NCBI GenBank assembly: GCA_009785615.1
Contig: WQVX01000016.1
Location: 1-33,548 of the forward strand
Reading direction: 5' to 3'
Origin: Defluviitaleaceae bacterium
GTDB taxonomy: Bacteria > Bacillota > Clostridia > Lachnospirales > WQUN01
DNA length: 33,548 nt
Position 1 is the first letter of the stretch. Every line of letters begins with the position of its first letter. A program made the position numbers and the translations under genes. Of this stretch, positions 15,519 through 20,936 are shown piece after piece. The notes beneath the pieces are model-generated. The model worked only from the letters and a program-made list of their open reading frames with translations. It searched no databases and was not told where the DNA came from.

Positions 15519-15599
15519 AGAATAATAATTAGGGAGGCATATTTATGGCTTATAAAATAGTAGCTATTTATGACGAAACCGGGTTTACGATAGATAAAA
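15519..15599 (+). repeat. Direct repeat, copy A: duplicated ribosome site and 5' end of the SNF2 helicase gene
   Basis: This stretch matches 17575-17656. From the ATG the two copies differ at only two of about 55 bases (GTA/GCA and GAC/GAT); in the roughly 26 bases upstream they differ at several positions with one gap. The match stops abruptly after GATAAAA. The two copies are in the same orientation and flank a segment of about 2 kb. Confidence 0.9.
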
Positions 15600-15637
15600 A
15601 AGATCCATACAATCCAAACGGGCAAATTTCAGCCTGA
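15545..15637 (+). pseudogene. 30-codon ORF: truncated copy of the SNF2 helicase start, or a leader peptide
   Basis: ATG at 15545 is preceded by a near-perfect ribosome site AGGGAGG with 7 bases of spacing. The first 18 residues, MAYKIVAIYDETGFTIDK, equal those of the SNF2 protein at 17602 except Val6 for Ala6. The next 12 residues (KDPYNPNGQISA) are unrelated, and the frame ends in TGA. The second half is built into the left arm and loop of a long hairpin (15598-15656). It is most simply a truncated gene duplicate ended by a terminator. Because the ribosome site and frame are intact, a translated leader peptide cannot be excluded. Confidence 0.6.
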
Positions 15638-15656
15638 AGGGATTTATGGATCTTTT
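15598..15656 (+). terminator. Long hairpin overlapping the 30-codon ORF, likely terminator
   Basis: Arms AAAAGATCCATA (15598-15609) and TATGGATCTTTT (15645-15656) pair perfectly over 12 bp; after a single bulged C the pairing continues as AATCC with GGATT. The T-rich tail TTTTGATTTTT follows. It would stop transcription coming from the lipoprotein gene and the short ORF before the GT39 gene. Confidence 0.65.
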
Positions 15657-15684
15657 GATTTTTATGTATTGAATATGCTATAGT
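15655..15684 (+). promoter_or_regulatory. Candidate promoter for the GT39-like gene
   Basis: TTGATT (15655-15660), an 18-base spacer and TATAGT (15679-15684). Transcription would begin near 15691, giving a leader of about 77 bases that carries the hairpin at 15707-15742. Confidence 0.35.
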
Positions 15685-15706
15685 TAATGCAAGTCAATGT
15701 ATCAAT

Positions 15707-15742
15707 AGACCCTATTGCATAGCTGAGTAATGCAATAGGTCT
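15707..15742 (+). other. Hairpin in the putative leader of the GT39-like gene
   Basis: AGACCCTATTGCAT (15707-15720) pairs with ATGCAATAGGTCT (15730-15742) over 13 bp with one bulged C around a 9-base loop. There is no T-run after it. It lies 25 bases before the ATG at 15768, so it could affect message stability or translation of the membrane glycosyltransferase. Confidence 0.5.
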
Positions 15743-15767
15743 TAATTTATGAAAGTGTGGGAAATGT

Positions 15768-17369
15768 ATGAAAATTATCACTAATGGTAAAAATTCTGGA
15801 ATCGCAAGCTTTATCAAAACACACTATTTTAGTATATTACGTATGGTAATCGTAGTTATATCACTTATAATAATGCTTCGCTATGCGAATGGACGCTCCC
15901 TTTGGGTAGACGAGCTTTGGACTATTTCTTTTACCGGGATAGATCAAAGCTGGGCTGAAATGTTTGATAACTTTATTGCAGATGCCACTTCAAACCCACC
16001 GTTATTTTACATAATTGCCGCACTTTGGCTGCGAATTGTGCCCTATGGTGCTTTTTGGCTGAGACTAATTTCTATAATATTTGCTGCTATTGGTATATAT
16101 TTGATAGGCAACGTTGCAGGTAAAATTTATGAAAGAGATGGGAAAGATTACGTTGCTGTTTTTGCCACATTATTTGCTTCCACGTCTTGGTTTTTTGTAA
16201 CGCAAGGTGCATTTTCCTTTCGTTCCTATGGATTACTGTTTTTGCTTTCGACATTGTATGTATATGTTTATATTCTACGAACACAACGACATACTGGGGT
16301 TGCGTTAGGGATTCTTTTAGGGTTACTGGCCGCATTATTAGGATATACTCATTATTTTGGGCTGTTTGTACCAGCTTCATTATTTATTTGTGACTTGGTA
16401 CTCCTTAAACATAAAGTACTGAAATGGCAGCATATGCTGTCTTATATACTTGCCGCAGCACTGTATCTGCCGTTTTTTATCCCGATTTTTTTACGTGTAG
16501 TTGCACAATCAGGGAATTTTTGGGCAGAGCCAGCTTCATTTATTAGATTAGTTTGGCTATTTAGAATGCTTGTCAGTAGTTCAGACTTAGTAGGTGCTTT
16601 GTTTATTTTTGGATCGGTTGCCGGTGTAGTTATTATGATTTCGATTATTTTTGAAAATCGGCTTGTCGTTAGCGCGTTATTAGGGCATTCAGCGTTTACC
16701 GAATACCGAAAAACTACAGTCCCGCTATCATCAATTTTGTTTGCAGCACAAGTGTTTACAGTAGCTTTAACCGTCGGAATGGTTTTTATTTACAGCCGTT
16801 TTATTAATCCAAATGGCTCTATTTTTGTAAATAGATATTTTATTGCCATATTGCCACAGTTGTTAATAGTATCGGCCATAAGTGCTACTTGGCTAATTGA
16901 AAATTTTATCATATATCTAAAGATGCATGGCAAGCTACTGTTTTTGATATGTATTTGTATAGTATCCATACCTATGATTGGAAATTTTTATGCAGAGGTA
17001 AATAGGTTTGCCACTACTTATCATCATCCTTTCCGAGAGTTGGCGGAGTGGATTTATCAACGAGAAGATGCACATAATCCGGACACACTTATAGTTACAC
17101 ATGCTCCAGCCAGAGGGTTCTCATATTTGCTAACTCAAGGTGGTCAGCGTCCGCCAATACATATCGCTGGTGTACGTTCGTGGAACGCTTATACGTATAA
17201 ATACCATGTGGATCTTACAGTGGAAAACCACATTCAATGGAATATTATTTATCGTTTCAGAGGTAGGGTACCAAGGAATACATTGAGCATTCTTGAACGG
17301 TACTACGATCTGATCAGTACCTATAATAAATGGGGGGAAACAATTTACGTTTATCAGCGCGTACAATAA
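15768..17369 (+). CDS. GT39/PMT-like polytopic membrane glycosyltransferase
   Basis: 533 residues with about ten or more hydrophobic helices and a C-terminal soluble part of about 110 residues. The first outside loop carries the acidic motif LWVDELWTISFTG, where Asp-Glu are the expected catalytic or metal-site residues of dolichyl/undecaprenyl-phosphate-sugar-using GT-C enzymes, and then TSNPPLFYIIAALWLRIVP, the NPPL(F/Y) pattern typical of PMT_2/ArnT-like proteins. Such enzymes move a sugar from a polyprenyl-phosphate carrier to lipid or protein at the outer face. The acceptor is unknown. No ribosome site stronger than GTGGG is visible. The gene lies alone between two copies of the SNF2 gene start and upstream of a 144-bp inverted-repeat element, so it may have arrived by insertion. 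Confidence 0.8.
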   Translation: MKIITNGKNSGIASFIKTHYFSILRMVIVVISLIIMLRYANGRSLWVDELWTISFTGIDQSWAEMFDNFIADATSNPPLFYIIAALWLRIVPYGAFWLRLISIIFAAIGIYLIGNVAGKIYERDGKDYVAVFATLFASTSWFFVTQGAFSFRSYGLLFLLSTLYVYVYILRTQRHTGVALGILLGLLAALLGYTHYFGLFVPASLFICDLVLLKHKVLKWQHMLSYILAAALYLPFFIPIFLRVVAQSGNFWAEPASFIRLVWLFRMLVSSSDLVGALFIFGSVAGVVIMISIIFENRLVVSALLGHSAFTEYRKTTVPLSSILFAAQVFTVALTVGMVFIYSRFINPNGSIFVNRYFIAILPQLLIVSAISATWLIENFIIYLKMHGKLLFLICICIVSIPMIGNFYAEVNRFATTYHHPFRELAEWIYQREDAHNPDTLIVTHAPARGFSYLLTQGGQRPPIHIAGVRSWNAYTYKYHVDLTVENHIQWNIIYRFRGRVPRNTLSILERYYDLISTYNKWGETIYVYQRVQ

Positions 17370-17388
17370 CCCCTTAATAATTAAAACA

Positions 17389-17532
17389 GGCTCATATCGC
17401 GTTTCAGACTGCTGCTAACGAAGCCGCTATTTCAGGCACTTCTCGAACGAGTAGCAGTCAGGCAAAAACGGCGCAATTACTGGGTTTCTGGCAGATAGAA
17501 CCTTATCAGCAGTCAGAAACACGATAAGAGCC
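17389..17532. repeat. 144-bp element with 26-bp imperfect terminal inverted repeats (MITE-like or structured RNA)
   Basis: The left arm (17389-17414) begins GGCTCATATCGCGTTTCAGA and the right arm (17507-17532), read on the other strand, begins GGCTCTTATCGTGTTTCTGA; both then read CTGCTG. They agree at 23 of 26 positions. Inside, GTAGCAGTC (17451-17459) can also pair with GACTGCTGC of the left arm, giving alternative folds. No coding frame and no clear target-site duplication are seen. It lies between the GT39 gene and the SNF2 gene. It could be a non-autonomous transposon remnant or a regulatory RNA leader. Confidence 0.75.
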
Positions 17533-17574
17533 ATAATCAAAGATTAAATCCAACCGTGGATTCACATTACTAAT

Positions 17575-17656
17575 AGAATGATAAATCAGGGAGACGAATT
17601 TATGGCTTATAAAATAGCAGCTATTTATGATGAAACCGGGTTTACGATAGATAAAA
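17575..17656 (+). repeat. Direct repeat, copy B: ribosome site and 5' end of the intact SNF2 gene
   Basis: Same-orientation partner of 15519-15599. This copy continues into the full-length helicase gene. Confidence 0.9.
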
Positions 17657-20223
17657 TTGCTGTAAAATCTTCAAAAAGCAGCGACAGCAATGAGATAAAT
17701 CAAACAGATTTTTATGAAGCCTTGTTGAATTATCCATCCGGGACAATTTATGAACATGCCTTTTTATACAAAAGTGATTATGATGTATCTATTCAATTTT
17801 TGATAGATATCGCAAAGTCAATGATCAGCAATATTTCCGGTAGTCCGGACGTGGATATCACTCGCAAAGCCCCAAAGCCAAATATTGAAAATCTAATGAG
17901 TCTTTTACGCCGGGTTCCATACGTAATCGGTTGCGAATTTGTTAATCTAAATTGGATTGAACAAGTCTATTTAGATATTGCCGCAGTATTTAACACTGAA
18001 TTTACAACCTTTGATGGTGATCTTGATCAATATTTCAAATCAAAAAATCCGGAGTTAAATGCAGCCGGAAAAGTATTTTTTCACTTAGTTGAAAGCAATG
18101 ATGAAAAATATCCGTTTGCATTTTTAGCTACATATTCTGAAGGTGAAAACGAAAATATTAAGCATGTGCCCCTTAAAAATGCCCTTGAAACCAATAATAA
18201 AGAAAATTTGCAGGACAAGCTTCTAGCGTTGCTTTCGGCAGTTAGTCGAGCCGCGGATAAGAGTGAGTTTTTATCTGAGCTTATAGAAAGCGGCGAACTT
18301 TTTTCACCCCTGCGCTTTAAAACAAAAGAGGCATACACTTTTTTAATGGAAACTCCTATTTATGAAGAAAGTGGTGTTGTTTGCCGCATACCAAATTTTT
18401 GGAAAAACAAGCCCGGTGCCCGTTTAAAAGCAAATGTTGGCAGTAAAGAACCCGCCGTCCTGGGATTAGACGCCCTTATGGCGTTTTCTCCATCAATTTA
18501 TTTGGGCGATGAGGAATTTACCAAAGCTGAAATTGAACAACTATTGGCAGAAAGTCGCGGTCTTGCTTTTCTTAAAGGCAAATGGGTAGAAGTTGATCCC
18601 GAAAAATTACAAGCTCTCTTAAAAGCCTTTGACGAAATTGAAGGCAAAGAATTATCACTTGCTGAGGCTCTTAGAATGCAATCCGGCTTTATGTCTTTTG
18701 GGGAAGATGATACCACTGATGAAATTGAAGTTACAAACGGCGAATGGCTTAATGAACTTAAATCAAAAATGATTAATCCTTCCGAAATCAAAAAACAGCG
18801 TGTAAATAAAAGCTTTCAAGCAACTTTGCGCAAGTATCAGAACGTCGGGTTTAACTGGCTTTATTTTATGATAAAGTCTAATTTTGGCGCACTTTTGGCA
18901 GATGATATGGGGCTTGGAAAAACTGTTCAAATTCTTGCACTATTTGATTTGTTACGAAAAGATAAAATTAAATCATTGCTGATCATTCCTGCGTCTCTTG
19001 TAGCAAATTGGAAAAAAGAAGCGGAGCGTTTCGCTCCTATGCTTAAAATAAAAATTTTACATGGTACTGAAAAAGAATTTTCAGAATCTGCAATAGAAGA
19101 AGCAGACTTATTTATCACAACTTATGGCATGGTAAAACGCATAGAGCAGCTTAACAGCGTAACTTGGGATTTGATAGTGTTAGATGAAGCTCAAGCCATA
19201 AAAAATCATAGCAATAAGCAGACTACAGCCGTAAAAGCTTTAAATGCAAAAAGTAAAATTGCAATGACCGGTACTCCTGTAGAAAATAGACTTTCAGATT
19301 TATGGTCAATATTTGATTTTCTAAATAAAGGCTTGCTAGGTTCACAAAAAGAATTTATACAGTTCACAAAAGGCTTAAAAGATGATAAATTGGGCTATGA
19401 AAAGCTACGCAATGTTGTTAGCCCTTTTATTTTACGTAGGCTTAAAACAGATAAAACTATCATCAGCGATTTACCTGATAAAGCTGAAATCAAGCAATAT
19501 ACAACTTTGACAAAAAAACAAATTGTGCTGTACAATCAACTTGTAAAGGAATTGGAACAAGCAATGAAAATTACAGACATGTCCGGAATTCAGCGTAAAG
19601 GAATCATTTTAACAAGCATCATGAAATTTAAGCAAATTTGCAACCATCCTGATCAATATTTGGGAAACAAAGAATTTTTAGCAAAGTATAGCGGAAAATT
19701 TGAAGCATTATCCAATATCTGCGAGACTATCCGAGATAAAAGAGAACGGATGCTGATATTTACCCAATTTAAAGAAATGACCCAGCCTATTGCTGATTTT
19801 TTAACAGAAATATTTGAACGCGAAGGCTTAATTTTGCATGGTGGTACAACAGTAAAAAAACGTGGCGAACTGGTGGAACGCTTTAACAGTACAGAATATG
19901 TACCTTTTATGGTGCTATCCCTTAAAGCGGGGGGCGTTGGTCTTAATCTCACTTCTGCAAACCATGTGGTGCATTTTGACAGATGGTGGAATCCTGCAAT
20001 TGAAAATCAAGCAACAGACCGTGCTTTCCGTATTGGGCAGCAAAAAAATGTTTGTGTGCATAAGTTTGTTACAACAGGGACAATTGAAGAGAAAATTGAC
20101 CTAATAATTGAAGAAAAACAAAAGCTTGCAGGAGATGTTATTGGGGCAAAAAGTGGTGAAAATTGGATAACGGAGATGAATAACGAAGAACTCTTCAACT
20201 TATTAAAGCTAGGAGTAAACTAA
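17602..20223 (+). CDS. SNF2-family ATP-dependent helicase/translocase
   Basis: 873 residues from ATG 17602, chosen because AGGGAG lies 8 bases upstream and because the duplicate at 15545 begins at the same codon; an ATG at 17578 would add 8 residues without a ribosome site. The N-terminal ~400 residues include the SNF2-associated region (GLAFLKGKWVEVDPEKLQ, DUF3670-like). The motor domain follows: Q-motif region LRKYQNVGFNWLYFM, Walker A ADDMGLGKTVQI (Lys440), Walker B LDEAQAIKNHS (Asp528-Glu529, a DEAQ box), MTGTPVENRLSDLWSIFDFL, then the second lobe with LIFTQFKEM, LKAGGVGLNLTSANHVVHFD and TDRAFRIGQ. SNF2 proteins move along duplex DNA and displace bound proteins. It overlaps the SWIM protein gene by one base, the same pairing as ywqA/ywqB of Bacillus subtilis. 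Confidence 0.94.
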   Translation: MAYKIAAIYDETGFTIDKIAVKSSKSSDSNEINQTDFYEALLNYPSGTIYEHAFLYKSDYDVSIQFLIDIAKSMISNISGSPDVDITRKAPKPNIENLMSLLRRVPYVIGCEFVNLNWIEQVYLDIAAVFNTEFTTFDGDLDQYFKSKNPELNAAGKVFFHLVESNDEKYPFAFLATYSEGENENIKHVPLKNALETNNKENLQDKLLALLSAVSRAADKSEFLSELIESGELFSPLRFKTKEAYTFLMETPIYEESGVVCRIPNFWKNKPGARLKANVGSKEPAVLGLDALMAFSPSIYLGDEEFTKAEIEQLLAESRGLAFLKGKWVEVDPEKLQALLKAFDEIEGKELSLAEALRMQSGFMSFGEDDTTDEIEVTNGEWLNELKSKMINPSEIKKQRVNKSFQATLRKYQNVGFNWLYFMIKSNFGALLADDMGLGKTVQILALFDLLRKDKIKSLLIIPASLVANWKKEAERFAPMLKIKILHGTEKEFSESAIEEADLFITTYGMVKRIEQLNSVTWDLIVLDEAQAIKNHSNKQTTAVKALNAKSKIAMTGTPVENRLSDLWSIFDFLNKGLLGSQKEFIQFTKGLKDDKLGYEKLRNVVSPFILRRLKTDKTIISDLPDKAEIKQYTTLTKKQIVLYNQLVKELEQAMKITDMSGIQRKGIILTSIMKFKQICNHPDQYLGNKEFLAKYSGKFEALSNICETIRDKRERMLIFTQFKEMTQPIADFLTEIFEREGLILHGGTTVKKRGELVERFNSTEYVPFMVLSLKAGGVGLNLTSANHVVHFDRWWNPAIENQATDRAFRIGQQKNVCVHKFVTTGTIEEKIDLIIEEKQKLAGDVIGAKSGENWITEMNNEELFNLLKLGVN

Positions 20224-20936
20224 TGAGCAGGTTTTTTATTTATGGTGAATATGTTCCCATTGCAGAAAAAAAGAAAAGGGCTGAGAGGCGAATAGAAGAA
20301 TTAAAAAAAAGCGATCCTGACTTAGCCCCTATCATTGTTGAAGGACGTAAAATCACTAATACTTGGTGGGGAACAGCTTGGTGCAAAAATCTTGAGTCGT
20401 ATGCTGACTACAGTAACCGCATAGAACGTGGAAGATCTTATGCAAGAAATAGCTTTGTAGTGGACTTGAAAATAGGCGAAGGTACTATAATTGGAAAAGT
20501 ATTAGGCAGTCGCTTGTATACAGTTGAAATAAAAATTGATGTATTAAGCCACTCAAACAAGGAAAATATAATCAACACAGTTGGACGCCGGATTGACAGC
20601 ATGGCGGATCTTGTAGAGGGCAAATTTCCAAAAGATTTTGAAGAATTATTTTTGACACAAGAAAAAGGGCTTTTCCCATCTCCAAAAGAAATCGACTTGG
20701 ATTGCGATTGTCCGGATTGGGCTGATATGTGCAAACATGTTGCAGCGGTTTTATACGGAGTTGGTGTACGTCTTGATGAAGATCCACTATTGTTTTTTAA
20801 GTTGCGTGGGGTGGATGTAAATTCCTTTATTAAAGCGTCAATTGATGAGAAACTTTCGCATATGATGAAAAATGTAGGATACACTACTGATCGTGTGCTA
20901 AAAGATGTAGATTTGGTTGAGCTTTTTGGTTTGTAA
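20223..20936 (+). CDS. SWIM zinc-finger protein, partner of the SNF2 helicase
   Basis: 237 residues. The SWIM motif is CDCPDWADMCKHVAAVLYG, with Cys161, Cys163, Cys170 and His172 as the zinc ligands (C-x-C-x6-C-x-H). The N-terminal part (TWWGTAWCKNLESYADYSNR) is the conserved opening of bacterial SWIM proteins encoded next to SNF2 helicases. The start codon overlaps the helicase stop (TAATG), showing translational coupling and probable complex formation. SWIM domains bind DNA or protein. The exact job of the pair, in DNA repair, nucleoid remodelling or defence, is not established by the sequence. Confidence 0.9.
   Translation: MSRFFIYGEYVPIAEKKKRAERRIEELKKSDPDLAPIIVEGRKITNTWWGTAWCKNLESYADYSNRIERGRSYARNSFVVDLKIGEGTIIGKVLGSRLYTVEIKIDVLSHSNKENIINTVGRRIDSMADLVEGKFPKDFEELFLTQEKGLFPSPKEIDLDCDCPDWADMCKHVAAVLYGVGVRLDEDPLLFFKLRGVDVNSFIKASIDEKLSHMMKNVGYTTDRVLKDVDLVELFGL

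Follow-up and report, generated by a model that had tools for sequence, protein, structure and literature searches.

Organization of the locus

The window analysed here, a stretch of 33,548 nt, is contig C16 of a 3.29-Mb metagenome bin that comprises 240 contigs and may be short of repeat-rich ones. In this window the start of a SNF2 helicase gene is present twice in the same orientation, once as a truncated copy (copy A) and once at the head of the intact gene (copy B). A terminator-like hairpin, a membrane-protein gene and a longer palindrome lie between the two copies (Table 1). The gene upstream of copy A had been labelled a lipoprotein gene in the initial annotation; its product has no Pfam or NCBIfam family match. 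The product of the intact helicase gene carries SNF2, helicase C and DUF3670 domains, all matching Pfam over the curated cut-offs.

Table 1. Coordinates of genes and sequence elements around the duplicated helicase start
Feature	Position	Strand	Description and basis
Upstream gene, 814 aa	13045..15489	+	ORF list
Copy A	15519..15599	+	Truncated duplicate, comprising ribosome site, ATG at 15545 and 18 codons of the SNF2 gene; repeat search, BLAST
30-aa ORF	15545..15637	+	SNF2 start plus 12 codons entering the hairpin; translation
Dispersed palindromic repeat, ~69 nt	15595..15663		Terminator-like hairpin; fold z -5.0; six further copies
Second small hairpin	15707..15742		-15.5 kcal/mol; 5' of the membrane-protein gene
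Membrane-protein gene, 533 aa	15768..17369	+	Multi-helix, GT-C-like by WxDE motif; ORF list
144-bp palindromic element	17388..17531		Found once in the genome; G044 has a 75% relative
Copy B	17575..17656	+	Intact SNF2 gene start, ATG at 17602; repeat search, BLAST
SNF2/DUF3670 helicase gene, 873 aa	17602..20223	+	Pfam SNF2-rel_dom 1.7e-58, DUF3670 1.1e-32, Helicase_C
SWIM zinc-finger protein gene	20223..20936	+	Pfam SWIM 1.1e-4; conserved partner of the SNF2 gene

The duplicated gene start

A repeat search of the 33.5-kb window detected a gapless direct repeat of 73 nt (15527-15599 and 17584-17656; 92% identity, spacing 2057), which was the only one of such strength. When positions 15519-15599 were compared with the whole genome by BLAST, they matched only themselves and 17575-17656 (E = 4.1e-25, 90% identity), a value that excludes similarity by chance. 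Upstream of about position 15519 any further similarity was not significant (p = 0.07); at the other end the match stops sharply after ...GATAGATAAAA. The longest exact run common to the two copies is 25 nt. The duplication as originally described is confirmed.

In copy A, a ribosome-site-like GGGAGG is followed by the ATG of a 30-aa ORF, which encodes MAYKIVAIYDETGFTIDKKDPYNPNGQISA before reaching a stop codon. The protein that begins in copy B opens with MAYKIAAIYDETGFTIDK and then continues as the full SNF2 protein. From the ATG onward, the copies differ at two of 55 nt: codon 6 is GTA/GCA (Val/Ala), and codon 10 is GAC/GAT, a synonymous change. The 27 nt 5' to the ATG contain five substitutions and one indel. 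Comparison of the two parts (2/55 versus 6/27) gave a Fisher p of 0.014, or 0.03 without the indel, but these are small numbers, and better preservation of the coding part is suggestive at best. A motif approximating Y-x-I-x-A-I-Y-x-E-x-G-F-x-x-D/E recurs at the starts of SNF2 proteins in relatives. This N-terminus is therefore native to the SNF2 family, and copy A represents the truncated start of the helicase gene and does not belong to a separate short family.

The palindrome at the copy A junction

The hairpin at the end of copy A has the features of an intrinsic terminator, a long GC-containing stem followed by TTTTGATTTTT, and because its 5' side is A-rich, the putative terminator could act in both directions. 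The initial description of a terminator-like hairpin thus stands as far as the structure is concerned, but not as a purely local terminator, since its 69 nt have six further copies in the genome, on both strands and with 76-90% identity. No full-length copy was found in the 37 other genomes of the family. The copies have a common left edge, T-AAAAA-GGATCC-AT, and several of the others have unrelated flanks. Copy A stops exactly at this edge. The sequence TAAAA is common to the palindrome edge and to the native helicase sequence, being present in the helicase gene at the junction point on the copy B side. All six other copies of the palindrome lack the copy A start sequence. The new observation here is that the presumed terminator is a dispersed palindromic repeat whose left edge bounds copy A.

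A hairpin of about 69 nt, with seven copies in this genome that are intergenic where examined, resembles the REP-like and terminator-bearing dispersed palindromic repeats. It differs from these in that no named family was matched and that some copies form the 3' end of a non-coding repeat of about 600 nt. This larger repeat has many copies in the genome and contains further inverted repeats; it was seen at L171:1-608 (G000:C193) and L170:1-594 (G000:C69), and also on C67, C5 (twice), C114, C7, C1 and C51. Elsewhere on C193, L171:1181-1432 resembles the Rfam model BsrG below threshold (36 bits against a gathering threshold of 55, E = 3e-5) and is perhaps a type I toxin-antitoxin RNA.

The segment between the copies

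The gene between the copies was initially assigned to family GT39, an assignment that no Pfam or NCBIfam model supports; the PDB likewise held no sequence match to its product. The 533-aa protein has the WxDE motif, a feature of GT-C enzymes, and S-W-DE is conserved in three homologues; its helical model was of low confidence (pLDDT 46). The gene is rare, being present in 2 of 38 genomes of the family and 2 of 391 genomes of the class, with this genome counted in both cases.

The 144-bp inverted-repeat element noted earlier was borne out by folding (z = -5.3). Among the genomes searched it is rarer still than the membrane-protein gene, with one relative at L172:2478-2610 (G044:C38). In that relative the outer stem is changed on both arms with pairing kept, and the interior is conserved. 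The element lies about 18 nt past the stop codon of a gene in both genomes; in G044 it is placed between the end of a gene judged by eye to be nucleotidyltransferase-like and an N-terminally truncated IS1634-family transposase. In our window it stops 43 bp short of the copy B repeat, and it is a separate, unclassified element. An integron attC site was considered for this palindrome and discarded, as no RYYYAAC/GTTRRRY core sites were seen by eye. Rfam had no match within the interval between the copies, and no match to this segment was found in viral contigs, plasmids or phages.

Comparison with relatives

The start region was compared with its own surroundings at 73 related helicase loci, at least 52 of which have more than 2.5 kb of upstream sequence. 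No second helicase start was found at any of the 73, the few weak matches being short and near chance; the arrangement is thus not one that relatives share. The neighbouring genes also differ each time; the duplication appears to be private to the lineage of this bacterium. The upstream 814-aa gene has partial homologues in genomes of the family, but these are not syntenic with the window and no syntenic locus was found. To judge from isolate names, many of the related genome records appear to be termite-gut bins.

Origin of the duplicated start

On balance, copy A is probably the scar of a one-off local rearrangement of the microhomology type at the palindrome, and not a regulatory or excision system. 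The 69-nt palindrome would already have separated the 814-aa gene from the gene for the membrane protein, originally about 30 bp past the upstream stop codon, a normal place for a terminator. There it may have broken or stalled replication, and repair would have placed beside it a copy of the helicase start from downstream. Two routes can be envisaged: a direct templated insertion of 81 nt of the helicase start by template switching, or a tandem duplication of 2.06 kb, with helicase codon 18 and the palindrome joined at TAAAA, after which one of the duplicated gene sets was lost. By either route, the 30-aa ORF would be a by-product, the intact helicase gene would work from copy B, and the copy A fragment would have no dedicated function.

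Several observations support this rearrangement. The junction of copy A coincides with the boundary common to all copies of the palindrome, TAAAA is native to the helicase gene at the junction, and the N-terminal motif is native to SNF2 proteins. In addition, the 73 related loci lack a second start, and the ORF list and family searches revealed no recombinase or transposase in the insert, where the membrane-protein ORF occupies 15768-17369. Counting against it, an overlap of 5 nt is short and TAAAA occurs often (20 times in the 2.6-kb helicase gene), no clear microhomology is evident at the left boundary near 15519, and the coding part of copy A, on small numbers, is better kept than would be expected if a dead fragment had simply decayed. 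We infer the order of events, as no pre-rearrangement relative was found.

In bacteria, duplications and deletions often arise spontaneously with short homologies at their junctions (PMC3411829, where most confirmed junctions were longer, at least 8 bp). The present case resembles such duplications, deletions and template-switch insertions in consisting of a partial gene copy with a short overlap at one junction, in having a palindrome at the breakpoint, and in its restriction to one lineage; the left junction and the missing parent arrangement set it apart (PMC3411829). It illustrates how the breakpoint of a partial gene duplication can fall at a small dispersed palindrome, and the duplicated start as it stands would be an ordinary private rearrangement. 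In broad outline the evidence agrees with the original suggestion of an insertion, or of a tandem duplication that failed, at the start of a gene. Neither of the findings named as refuting that suggestion was made: no second start was found in relatives, and the N-terminus is that of the SNF2 family itself.

Alternative explanations

Less likely, in our estimate, is the insertion of a foreign 1.98-kb piece, made up of the palindrome, the membrane-protein gene and the 144-bp palindrome, at the helicase start with duplication of an 81-bp target, caused by a break with a wide stagger or by a transposase of the kind that leaves long target duplications. The structure has the exact form of an insert between direct repeats, its left edge coincides with that of a dispersed element, and both the membrane-protein gene and the 144-bp palindrome are rare. 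IS1634 and IS1549 reportedly duplicate 8-514 bp of target sequence (PMC2266710), other members of the family about 5-6 bp (PMC8024623). Direct repeats of about 80 bp around a segment of about 2 kb fall within the longer range; IS1634-family transposases are present in 8 of 38 family genomes, and one adjoins the G044 relative of the 144-bp palindrome. The locus differs from IS1634/IS1549 insertions (PMC2266710), however, in having no transposase and no IS1634-type terminal repeats, and in that its copies are only about 90% alike. The whole bin lacks any IS1634-family match, inspection of 15600/17574 revealed no terminal inverted repeats, and the 144-bp palindrome stands away from the repeat. 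The two rearrangement routes are favoured over such an insertion because only a short piece would have to move or the junction is typical of end joining, because the breakpoint coincides with the palindrome base, and because neither an enzyme nor terminal repeats for insertion are present.

Two further comparisons were made. An intact IS1634-family element of the family (L208:2259-4011, G004:C62) has terminal inverted repeats of about 55 nt and no evident long flanking direct repeat; its ends are unrelated to the 144-bp palindrome, and the idea that the latter represents an IS1634 terminal repeat was dropped. At the right edge of the insert, the closest resemblance to the hairpin ranked only within the top 5% of random windows, which is not significant, and the edge was not accepted as a decayed hairpin copy. 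Both results tell against insertion. We consider it improbable that 15600-17574 is a non-autonomous mobile cassette comprising the dispersed palindrome, a cargo gene and the 144-bp palindrome, one that duplicates some 80 bp of target on insertion and is mobilized in trans by an enzyme that may belong to the IS1634 family. An insertion, if it did occur, would bear on the origin of the long target duplications made by some IS1634-type elements.

A regulatory role for copy A is improbable. It would be a leader kept for attenuation, the 30-aa ORF running into the hairpin and thereby controlling read-through from the upstream gene to those for the membrane protein and the helicase. In favour of this, the ORF is preceded by a good ribosome site and terminates inside the hairpin, and copy A is less changed in its coding part than in the part preceding it. 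Yet the same hairpin stands at six other places without this start sequence, none of the 73 related loci has the arrangement, the 30 residues include no run of regulatory codons, and one of only two codon differences alters the protein. Moreover, an ORF that ends in a hairpin is what one would expect as a by-product when a gene start becomes joined to a palindrome. The initial proposals that the direct repeats allow the segment to be excised, or that the second copy is kept under separate control, gained no positive support, the insert lacking a recombinase and the longest exact overlap being 25 nt.

An assembly artefact is about as improbable as the regulatory leader. The window is one contig of a bin in 240 pieces, and the 25-nt exact stretch present in both copies is a place where a short-k assembler could swap flanks; but the copies differ at several places, and the other junctions have few common nucleotides, too short for a false overlap. 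Site-specific recombination, in which an integrating element used the helicase 5' end as its attachment site and brought a replacement start (attL/attR), would account for the sharp right end of the match, the imperfect identity outside a 25-nt core and the regenerated gene start, but is highly improbable: neither the insert nor the scanned ORFs of the window yielded an integrase in ORF and family searches, the insert is 2 kb with a single long ORF, no such element is present at the 73 related helicase loci, and the segment is unmatched in phages and plasmids.

The SNF2-SWIM gene pair

The pairing of the SNF2 gene with a SWIM gene recurs in genomes of the family and in numerous bins classified under several phyla, its neighbours changing from one to the next. 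In the pair (window 17602-20936; L031-L110), the helicase part, with its DUF3670 domain, scores against the ZorD and DpdE defence models.
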